Below are positions 10,552-12,129 of a stretch of 16,969 bases of DNA, one piece after another. Positions within the stretch are counted from its first letter, which is position 1; the number at the start of each line of letters is the position of its first letter. Below the pieces are notes generated by a model, which did no database searches, was not told where the DNA came from, and saw nothing but the letters and a program-made list of their open reading frames with translations. The stretch is from the NCBI GenBank assembly GCA_007571185.1, contig RKRX01000094.1, positions 1-16,969 on the forward strand. The letters are read 5' to 3'. The position numbers and the translations under genes were made by a program. This DNA comes from Oceanicaulis sp. (GTDB lineage Bacteria > Pseudomonadota > Alphaproteobacteria > Caulobacterales > Maricaulaceae).

Positions 10552-11421
10552 ATGACCGTTTTCCGCACCCGTTTTGCACCTTCTCCTACCGGCTATCTGC
10601 ATCTGGGACACGCCTATGCCGCGTTGACTGTGTTCGACACCGCCCGCCAAGCGGGTGGAACAGCGCTATTGCGGATTGAGGATATCGACCGGACCCGCTG
10701 CAAGCAGGAATTTGAACAGGCGATATACGATGATCTGCGCTGGCTGGGCTGTGACTGGCCGGAACCGGTTAGACGACAAAGCGATCACATCTCGACGTGT
10801 TCCGTGCTCGATCAGCTGGCCGCCCAAGGACTGATCTATCGTTGTTTCAAAACCCGCAGGGAAATTGCACAAGACATCGCCCGCGCGCCCCACCATCCCG
10901 GCGAAGGTTCCGGGGGCGTGATCTATCCCGGTCCCGCCACACCCATGAGCCCTGATGAGGAGGCCGAGCGCCTGTCAAAGGGAGCACCGTTTGCCTGGCG
11001 ATTGTCAATCACGGCCTGTCGCGAGTATCTGGGCGAACGCTTTGACCAGCTGGATTTTGAGGAAACCGGCCAAGGCGCCGAAGGAAAAACCGGCCGGGTG
11101 CGCGCCCGTCCCGACAGTCTGGGCGACGTCATCCTGGGACGCAAGGATATGGGAACCAGCTATCATCTGGCCTGCACCCATGATGACGCGCTTCAGCGGA
11201 TCAGCCATGTGATCCGGGGCACTGACCTGTTCTTCGCCACTCATCTGCACCGCTTGCTGCAGGAATTGATGGGATGGTCTGTTCCGGTCTATCACCATCA
11301 TCCCCTGATACGCGATGAGACCGGCAAACGTTTCGCCAAGCGTGACCGGGCGATCACCTTGCGCGCCCTGAGATCAGCCGGGTTCAGCCCGGCTGATCTC
11401 AGGGCGCGTGTGGGGCTTTAA
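10552..11421 (+). CDS. gluQ: GluQ, glutamyl-queuosine tRNA(Asp) synthetase
   Basis: This truncated glutamyl-tRNA synthetase paralogue attaches glutamate to queuosine in tRNA(Asp). The 289-residue length fits GluQ, which lacks the anticodon-binding domain of GltX. The class I core is present: FAPSPTGYLHLGH with the HIGH-type HLGH at 17-20, LRIEDIDRTR (40-49), and a KMSKS-type KRFAK (259-263). The zinc site appears broken. Of the usual Cys, Cys, Tyr, Cys ligands, only Cys98 and Tyr125 align; Lys100 replaces the second cysteine and Ala129 the last. The ATG at 10552 is chosen because the conserved MTVFRTRFAPSPTG begins there; the frame is open further upstream without similarity. A 21-bp perfect hairpin lies within its last codons. 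Its TAA falls inside the target duplication of the neighbouring insertion. Confidence 0.93.
   Translation: MTVFRTRFAPSPTGYLHLGHAYAALTVFDTARQAGGTALLRIEDIDRTRCKQEFEQAIYDDLRWLGCDWPEPVRRQSDHISTCSVLDQLAAQGLIYRCFKTRREIAQDIARAPHHPGEGSGGVIYPGPATPMSPDEEAERLSKGAPFAWRLSITACREYLGERFDQLDFEETGQGAEGKTGRVRARPDSLGDVILGRKDMGTSYHLACTHDDALQRISHVIRGTDLFFATHLHRLLQELMGWSVPVYHHHPLIRDETGKRFAKRDRAITLRALRSAGFSPADLRARVGL
11362..11408. repeat. perfect 21-bp hairpin inside the 3' end of gluQ
   Basis: The arms 11362-11382 and 11388-11408 are perfectly complementary over 21 bp with a 5-nt loop (TTCAG); a G-U pair would extend the stem on each further step outward to 11360/11410. The arms code for RALRSAG and PADLRAR of GluQ. 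No T run follows, so it is not a standard terminator. It may block 3' exonucleases or pause polymerase at the convergent gluQ/peptidase junction. Confidence 0.9.
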
Positions 11422-11424
11422 TCC
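11417..11424. repeat. target-site duplication, left copy (TTTAATCC)
   Basis: TTTAATCC directly abuts the left terminal inverted repeat and is repeated exactly at 12122-12129. It contains the gluQ stop codon TAA (11419-11421). Confidence 0.85.
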
Positions 11425-11450
11425 GGGAATTATCCCGCAAAGTGCCATTG
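11425..11450 (+). repeat. terminal inverted repeat, left
   Basis: This 26-bp sequence is the exact reverse complement of 12096-12121. Its outer 12 bp, GGGAATTATCCC, carry a GGGA/TCCC mini-palindrome. Matching stops abruptly on both sides, as expected for true element ends. Confidence 0.9.
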
Positions 11451-11547
11451 CCCACTAGCTTATCAATCTGAGAAATTGAATTAGGCGCATGTAGTAGGTG
11501 AAGGCTTTTGCAACCGGTAATTCAATGTACAATTTCCAATTTTTTAA

Positions 11548-11832
11548 TCATGCTAAACTAAGTTCACTATGTGAACCTATTCTTTCTAAACAAAGCGTCG
11601 TAGCATTAGGTTTGCAATATATTAAAATTAAATCCGGTTTAAGATGGCAATCGCGGCTTCCTGTGTATTTTCCAAGTAATGGATGATCTTTGTATCTATA
11701 TGGTAATACAGAATCATTTGCCAACAATTTTATTGCATTATCAAGAAGATTGTCAACTTCTTTTTCATATTGACCACGTTTTTCACGTTTGTAATCTCGC
11801 AAAAAACGAGATGTTCGTCTAATCGATCTCAT
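11548..11832 (-). CDS. YafQ-family (RelE superfamily) mRNA endoribonuclease toxin
   Basis: This 94-residue protein resembles the type II toxin YafQ, a ribosome-dependent mRNA-cleaving enzyme. The C-terminal half carries the family pattern YKDHPLLGKYTGSRDCHLKPDLILIY and ends RIGSHSEL. The residues reported as important in E. coli YafQ all have counterparts: His50, Asp61, His63, Asp67 and the C-terminal His88. The N-terminus is basic (RSIRRTSRFLRDYKREKR), as usual for RelE folds. The toxin ATG at 11832 lies inside the upstream small gene (14-nt overlap), so the toxin should be translated by coupling to its antitoxin. Codon use is AT-rich, unlike the chromosome around it. It is the second gene of the element's only operon. 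Confidence 0.9.
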   Translation of the reverse strand: MRSIRRTSRFLRDYKREKRGQYEKEVDNLLDNAIKLLANDSVLPYRYKDHPLLGKYTGSRDCHLKPDLILIYCKPNATTLCLERIGSHSELSLA

Positions 11833-11989
11833 GATTTTCTAAACATGTATGCAAATGTTTTATCAAATTATCTGGATGACCAACGTACACAGTTTGACCG
11901 AGACGAGCATCACGTTGCGCTTGTTCAGTTTCTGCATTAGGAGCAATTGAACTATATTTTTTGGTAACTTTAAGCTCATCGATTTTCAT
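11819..11989 (-). CDS. putative antitoxin partner of the YafQ-like toxin
   Basis: A 56-residue ORF starts with ATG at 11989, about 8 nt after AGGAG on the minus strand, and ends with TAG at 11819 after the toxin start. The protein opens MKIDELKVTKKYSSIAPNAE, has a central QAQRDARLGQTVYVGHPDN and ends in CLENHEID. Size, order (upstream of the toxin), overlap and charge suit a type II antitoxin. It does not look like DinJ or RelB: I see no obvious ribbon-helix-helix pattern, and DinJ is longer. The link to the toxin is by context, not by similarity. If it binds DNA, the promoter at 12046-12073 is the likely target. Confidence 0.75.
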   Translation of the reverse strand: MKIDELKVTKKYSSIAPNAETEQAQRDARLGQTVYVGHPDNLIKHLHTCLENHEID

Positions 11990-12045
11990 CTTTAATTCTC
12001 CTGTTCAACACTGATTAGAAATTGTACACATAACTTCCACCTTTC

Positions 12046-12073
12046 CGTATAACAGCATTTTTCAAAAAGTCAA
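12046..12073 (-). promoter_or_regulatory. promoter of the toxin-antitoxin operon
   Basis: On the minus strand TTGACT (12073-12068) is followed, after 16 bp, by TATACG (12051-12046); TTATAC at 12052-12047 is an equivalent reading with 15 bp. This is the best -35/-10 pair in the element. It lies between the right terminal repeat and the antitoxin, so the cassette brings its own promoter. Confidence 0.6.
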
Positions 12074-12095
12074 CCCCCAGAAATAAATTTGTTAT

Positions 12096-12121
12096 CAATG
12101 GCACTTTGCGGGATAATTCCC
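12096..12121 (-). repeat. terminal inverted repeat, right
   Basis: Exact reverse complement of 11425-11450 over 26 bp. The base before it (12095) and after it (12122) no longer match the left copy, so the ends are well defined. Confidence 0.9.
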
Positions 12122-12129
12122 TTTAATCC
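12122..12129. repeat. target-site duplication, right copy (TTTAATCC)
   Basis: Exact copy of 11417-11424. Read on the minus strand it is GGATTAAA and supplies the TAA stop of the S9 peptidase gene (12125-12123). Confidence 0.85.

Follow-up and report, generated by a model that had tools for sequence, protein, structure and literature searches.

A 697-bp element of Oceanicaulis sp. with IS1595-family ends around a YafQ-type toxin-antitoxin pair, very probably a mobile insertion cassette

Our analysis suggests that the 697-bp element at positions 11425-12121 of the window (the whole 16,969-nucleotide stretch analysed, contig RKRX01000094.1 of Oceanicaulis sp.) is a mobile insertion cassette (MIC), with two IS1595-family ends around a YafQ-type toxin-antitoxin (TA) pair, which would be mobilised in trans by an IS1595 transposase. 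We consider this reading, which comes from sequence comparison, very probable. The element has perfect terminal inverted repeats (IRs) and an exact 8-bp target duplication (TSD), its ends are shared with an intact IS1595 transposase gene of the same genome, sibling cassettes lie elsewhere in that genome, and its toxin is of the YafQ family (Table 1).

Table 1. The element and its insertion site, in window coordinates.
Feature	Position	Strand	Remarks
Left TSD copy, TTTAATCC	11417..11424	no strand	8 bp; gluQ stop codon inside
Left terminal inverted repeat	11425..11450	+	26 bp, perfect
YafQ-family (RelE superfamily) toxin, 94 aa	11548..11832	-	profile matches, PDB relatives
Antitoxin, 56 aa	11819..11989	-	alignment to C-terminal half of DinJ-like antitoxins
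Promoter-like TTGACT-N16-TATACG	12046..12073	-	inside right end; read from sequence
Right terminal inverted repeat	12096..12121	-	26 bp, perfect
Right TSD copy, TTTAATCC	12122..12129	no strand	stop codon of convergent peptidase gene inside

The two arms are complementary at 26 of 26 positions, and the GC content of the element is 35.3%, compared to 60.1% in the flanks. Perfect 20-bp inverted repeats within 2 kb start at nine positions in the whole window, seven of which are the element arms and two a hairpin in gluQ. No transposase was found within the element, either in the list of open reading frames or by Pfam and NCBIfam searches; as in a MIC, passenger genes are present instead, and these are only a YafQ-type toxin gene and its small upstream partner. 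Thus, the perfect 26-bp repeats with their 8-bp duplication, the AT-rich and transposase-free content and the YafQ-like toxin with an upstream partner, all of them part of the original prediction, were borne out. One IR arm, folded as single-stranded DNA, gave an uninformative z of -1.9.

The element is inserted where the stop codons of two convergent neighbours overlap, namely those of gluQ (ending at 11421) and an S9-type peptidase gene (ending at 12123), both names being assigned by reading and not by family search. Since the TSD holds the stop codons of both neighbours, both frames are intact, and with the element removed in silico they end at the same stops. Note that the 3' end of gluQ forms a perfect 21-bp hairpin with a 5-nt loop (window 11362-11408), which may act as a terminator between the convergent genes; none was seen at the corresponding place in three congeners.

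The start of the toxin gene is overlapped by the antitoxin frame over 14 nt, and together the two genes occupy positions 11548-11989, 63% of the 697 bp. The toxin matches the Pfam YafQ_toxin family (PF15738; E=2.1e-26, 92.5 bits, cut-off 30), which makes it a YafQ-family toxin as found in YafQ-DinJ type II TA systems. It also scores above the cut-off of the NCBIfam family RelE_StbE (62.8; cut-off 27.9) and below that of the YafQ subfamily TIGR00053 (63.7; cut-off 87.25). With E of 0.001 or less, it matches YafQ-like toxins of known structure (11 distinct PDB sequences), and its KDHPL, CHLKPDL and GSHSEL stretches, within which the catalytic residues presumably fall, are kept in both PDB alignments displayed. 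Among the 120 matches listed of 322 in the protein collection, the closest relative is 98% identical and the others are at most 63% identical. This closest toxin, P0001, lies on a 1193-bp contig and has two residue differences, one of them within KDHPL; it is either a strain variant or a second copy. A protein search with the window antitoxin returned two relatives, one 98% identical and the other letter-identical to a remnant on contig C217 of the same genome. The 98%-identical toxin and antitoxin could represent the same insertion in variant strains and not a second insertion.

The upstream partners of other YafQ genes, if measured from their first start codon, mostly have 82-110 aa, and a VRARID...VSDA start is common to many of them; the N-terminal part of the one partner searched matches the PDB antitoxins DinJ and RelB. 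Aligned with partners of 87-88 aa, the window antitoxin corresponds to their C-terminal part and is devoid of the ribbon-helix-helix half, the N-terminal DNA-binding half of a DinJ/RelB antitoxin. Read from two codons upstream, its frame has no Pfam or NCBIfam match. Thus, the pair resembles YafQ-DinJ (PDB 4ml0, 4q2u) in its toxin family, its overlapping upstream antitoxin gene and its antitoxin C-terminus, but differs from it in the absence of this N-terminal half.

The IRs of a known IS are found on both sides of the element, since the first 24 bp of its arms are identical to the end beside the IS1595 transposase gene of contig C30. This gene is an intact 324-aa frame for an ISXO2-like DDE transposase (PF12762, E=3.5e-38; NF033547, 170 bits, cut-off 75). 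IS1595-type transposase sequence adjoins the same or a variant end on contigs C30, C139, C85, C25 and C112, with a relic on C176; the Pfam domain check was done on the C30 and C139 transposases, and the latter also matches PF12762. On the 21 contigs of this genome examined in detail (the window and 20 others), no IS1595 copy with both ends was seen, the copies being decayed or cut by contig ends.

The ends themselves are widespread. A search of the 1.66-Mb genome (238 contigs) for the 22-bp repeat core, with up to 3 mismatches allowed, gave 16 matches, 10 of them exact (both window ends included), and none for the reversed core pattern used as a control. The repeat-bearing sites elsewhere in the genome have differing flanks. 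On 19 of the 21 contigs we found 22 ends with at most 4 mismatches in 24, compared to 0 in the reversed contigs. Two end pairs in these contigs have an exact 8-bp TSD (0 in the reversed contigs), namely the window element and a second complete transposase-less cassette of 1546 bp (C154:340-1885; TSD CTTTGTTG). The cargo of the latter is a 456-aa N6/N4 methylase fused to an HNH domain, which is 65% and 54% identical to the passengers of two related IS1595 transposons, L230 and L199, respectively. The original prediction had proposed that a full IS, or more copies, with the same ends would support mobility, and indeed IS1595 transposase genes adjoin these ends and the C154 cassette has a different 8-bp duplication.

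Other siblings are related to the TA cassette itself. C196:95-553 is a copy 74% identical to it with an interrupted toxin frame, and both C217:8634-8886, a remnant, and C101:1-218 hold the promoter end and the start of the antitoxin. At C25:1-402, a related end (5 mismatches in 24) and the same promoter core precede a different TA pair, composed of an antitoxin-like frame and the first part of a toxin-like one, both differing from those of the window; this pair is cut by the contig start. These sibling TA copies are decayed or cut by contig ends, and the window copy is the only intact one among those examined. Finally, contigs C158 and C61 have 176 bp in common up to the IR end (99%) and diverge from the first flanking base.

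A promoter had also been predicted within the element. A promoter-like TTGACT-N16-TATACG was read in the right end, but it was not listed by a consensus promoter scan, which requires the second hexamer to end in T. The TTGACT core is common to other TA cassettes and to the region upstream of the C30 transposase gene, where GGGTTGACTTTTGGAAA resembles the GGGGTTGACTTTTTGAAA of the TA cassettes, both by eye and in a MAFFT alignment. This likeness favours a scenario in which the TA pair took the place of the transposase gene behind an IS promoter. The TA genes begin directly after the end-promoter module, the position of the transposase gene in the relatives.

We propose that an IS1595 transposase made elsewhere in the genome would recognise the 26-bp ends, as the shared ends suggest, and that the cassette would have inserted into an AT-rich 8-bp target, which was thereby duplicated. 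The TA operon is likely driven by the IS-like promoter region at the antitoxin-side end, in place of the transposase gene. Plausibly, a TA pair first came to lie behind the IS promoter, flanked by functional ends, and for as long as the genome had the IS, the unit could then have spread as a MIC. The toxin and the antitoxin would both be active, and the pair would favour retention of the cassette. The element had previously been described as a mobile, self-contained cassette: the repeats at many sites and the second cassette with another TSD agree with mobility, but the element is not self-contained, since it would need a transposase in trans.

An alignment of 16 transposases was used to scan the GTDB genome collection, and the loci of the best 80 of 512 relatives were taken. 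The record titles of these 80 loci name Boseongicola, Roseovarius, Rhodobacteraceae, Gammaproteobacteria, Chloroflexi and others; judging from the bin names, we read most of the MAGs behind them as being of sponge origin. The relatives of the IS have GGG[A/G]ATTAT ends. Under a strict test, in which a left end had to lie a short distance upstream of the transposase and to be paired with a matching right end, with an exact 8-bp TSD around the two, 33 of these 80 loci are complete elements of 1604-4859 bp, with their passenger frames downstream of the transposase. Thus, the exact 8-bp TSD of the window element has the length found in these 33 relatives. A looser pairing gave one pair each in 48 of the same best 80 loci and 0 in the reversed loci, and none of the looser-test pairs was transposase-less. 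An end search in nine of these genomes gave matches in six, with 0 in the controls. Equal-length end pairs recur there (2931 bp four times in genome G441; 4545 bp four times and 2578 bp twice in G443), which fits the transposition of whole units. Two individual loci are worth describing. L161 is a 2578-bp IS1595 transposon with an exact TSD, whose cargo is an MT-A70 methylase together with a BglII-type restriction enzyme; end pairs of this length lie at two places in G443. At L158, the 4545-bp element has a right flank (ATAGTTTT) identical to the left flank of the L159 copy, as recombination of the chromosome between two copies would produce.

In the 33 complete elements, 61 passenger frames have a length of at least about 110 aa, many of them without any family. 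Among the 25 of 34 families listed, the matches comprise 9 N6_N4_Mtase, 5 HNH, 3 N6_Mtase, 3 Methylase_S, 2 Mrr_cat, 1 BglII, 1 MT-A70 and 1 PIN, counts that are not independent because some elements come from one genome or are alike (e.g. L217 and L220). Methylase or restriction cargo is present in at least 13 of the 33 complete elements from the best 80 of 512 loci (L161, L168, L173, L174, L192, L195, L199, L207, L215, L217, L220, L230 and L232). The PIN gene, in L155, has an overlapping 284-aa partner without a family. Note that one L156 "passenger" is an IS66 transposase.

Another possibility could be that the element landed as a full IS1595 transporter IS with a TA passenger and later lost its transposase by internal deletion. 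The relatives do have passengers downstream of the transposase, including the PIN-domain gene with its overlapping partner frame. However, the TA genes of the window directly follow the end-promoter module, where the relatives have the transposase gene, the window IRs are still perfect, and the siblings at other sites have the same cassette start. We therefore regard such a decayed IS as unlikely.

The original prediction had likened the element to a MITE that gained an addiction module. That a MITE captured a chromosomal TA operon, unconnected to IS passenger biology, would suit a short, AT-rich and transposase-free element with the ends of an IS found in the genome. Yet a MITE is short and non-coding, whereas two genes make up most of this element, and the C154 cassette, with the same ends, carries a methylase-HNH that resembles IS1595 passengers, so cargo transport looks typical of the group. 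The MITE label was consequently replaced by that of a MIC, IS ends around passenger genes, which fits better, and we give a captured operon of this kind little chance, even less than a decayed IS. TA loci are frequently chromosomal, and the pair might then be an immobile locus with flanking repeats and a duplication that are there by chance or unrelated. This explanation is the least credible and barely tenable, since perfect 26-bp repeats common to many sites accompany an exact 8-bp TSD; the absence of TSD-flanked pairs from the reversed controls and the repeat matches elsewhere already contradict it. The preferred reading remains that of a MIC moved in trans.

With a 713-bp query, the element had no match in 60 related genomes, the 14 congeners included, or in the plasmid and phage collections. 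The exact IR pattern had 0 matches in viral_contigs and genome_contigs, collections in which records near this genome may be absent. A GluQ match is present in 15 of 15 genomes of the genus (its own included), although in G002 it is only 45% identical. The gluQ region was compared in eight congeners. The three with the closest GluQ (G014, G007 and G006; 73-75% identical) have no element but do have the peptidase gene downstream of gluQ, separated from it by an MFS-like gene (named by reading) and, in one or more of the three, by additional genes. The remaining five showed no peptidase gene in the stretch compared downstream of gluQ. Thus, regarding the comparison with an empty gluQ/peptidase junction that had been suggested, the element is absent from these relatives, but no exact empty site was seen among the eight gluQ regions, since other genes intervene where the peptidase was found.

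Searched with the toxin, 38 of 385 genomes of the class (its own included) and 14 of 50 genomes holding IS1595 relatives have a match. The ends were then scanned around 22 toxin matches in 20 stretches and in 55 of 56 loci, the two sets partly overlapping. Of the 56 loci, 30 came from the class search (one being the window) and 26 from the genomes with IS1595 relatives; L247 was left out because it has no toxin match, and class-search toxin copies without a locus of their own were scanned only where they fall inside the 20 stretches. Besides the window, no YafQ cassette with GGG[A/G]ATTAT ends was found among the stretches and loci scanned, and the TA-carrying MIC is known from one genome only within the searches made. 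Some signals were rejected: the cassette-like signal at L140 reflects repeated palindromes of that genome, L108 has two weak end-like matches without repeat or TSD, and L128 and L249, with short arms, 5- and 6-bp repeats and spans of about 1.8 and 1.9 kb, respectively, were taken as chance. The alphaproteobacterial genome G396, which holds loci L134-L140, has nine YafQ-like matches and many copies of the GAAGGGGGGG palindrome.

The founding IS1595 paper is said to be Siguier 2009, and the MIC231 paper is reportedly Chen 1999. MICs carry passenger genes. In chromosomal integrons, TA gene cassettes are small self-contained TA units that move as cargo via attC sites and an integrase, whereas the window element has DDE-transposase ends with a TSD. 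Passages of several papers describe MICs, MIC231 of Bacillus cereus and others, as having IS ends and no transposase of their own and as being moved by the cognate IS (PMC6542083, PMC3129680, PMC3281130); the window element shares the IS ends and the absence of a transposase, and differs in that its ends are of the IS1595 family and its cargo is a TA pair only. As outlined in part of PMC5704250, tISCpe8 and MTnSag1 are IS1595 transporter IS, and ISApl4, a plain IS1595 element, has an A/T-rich 8-bp duplication according to a section of PMC12561309. With these elements our case has in common the transposase family (found in this genome), a G-rich IR start, A/T-rich 8-bp duplications and, in some of them, passengers. 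Unlike them, it has no transposase, a 26-bp IR of different sequence, and a TA pair instead of resistance genes as cargo. TA pairs are also passengers in Tn3-family transposons, possibly under a transposon promoter, as noted in portions of PMC7157771, and in this the window element is similar. It is nevertheless outside the Tn3 family, having 697 bp, other ends, no tnpA, tnpR or res, and an 8-bp TSD in place of the short one of Tn3-derived elements (5 or 6 bp in the relevant part of PMC4133298).

In the literature searched, which was covered partially, no description of a TA pair as the sole cargo of a MIC or MITE was found, nor of an IS1595 MIC combined with a TA pair whose antitoxin is without the DNA-binding half. 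Hence a TA-only IS1595 MIC with such an antitoxin looks new. If our reading is true, the element would be a small and simple example of an addiction module spread by a pair of transposon ends, without a transposase of its own. It would also connect transposable elements with the enrichment in restriction-modification and TA genes of sponge symbionts, as both are reported in parts of PMC5649159; the host of the window itself may or may not live in a sponge. As a model, it would make two questions accessible to experiment: does a TA pair hold a transposon at its site, and how does a TA operon function when its antitoxin does not bind DNA? More tentatively, and with clear reservations on our side, the IS1595 branch, which we read as common in sponge-associated bacteria, might be a dispersal system for addiction modules. 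Methylases, restriction enzymes or a PIN-type pair would be the cargo of its full transposons, and a single methylase-HNH gene or a TA pair that of stripped cassettes sharing their ends; the cassette antitoxin would have lost its DNA-binding half and the operon would sit on the IS promoter, with loss of the element punished and expression tied to the transposon end.

Some further observations concern the host genome. IS1595-like ends lie in or beside helicase-like, hsdR-like and hsdM-like genes, identified by eye or, for HsdM, by family search (3862 in L016, contig C139; 5691 in L073, C68; 1373 in L072, C47; 7432-9658 in L019, C30), and such ends may often target the restriction loci of this genome or carry them as cargo. 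Another interspersed repeat family is found at 2058-2560 in L071 (C104), 8495-8867 in L013 (C4) and 8505-8633 in L009 (C217), with 82-88% identity between contigs in the longer matches. Finally, this genome measures 1.66 Mb at 91% completeness, compared to 2.8-3.4 Mb for the 14 congeners listed, and carries many IS1595-like ends and broken copies; it is possibly a genome in reduction.
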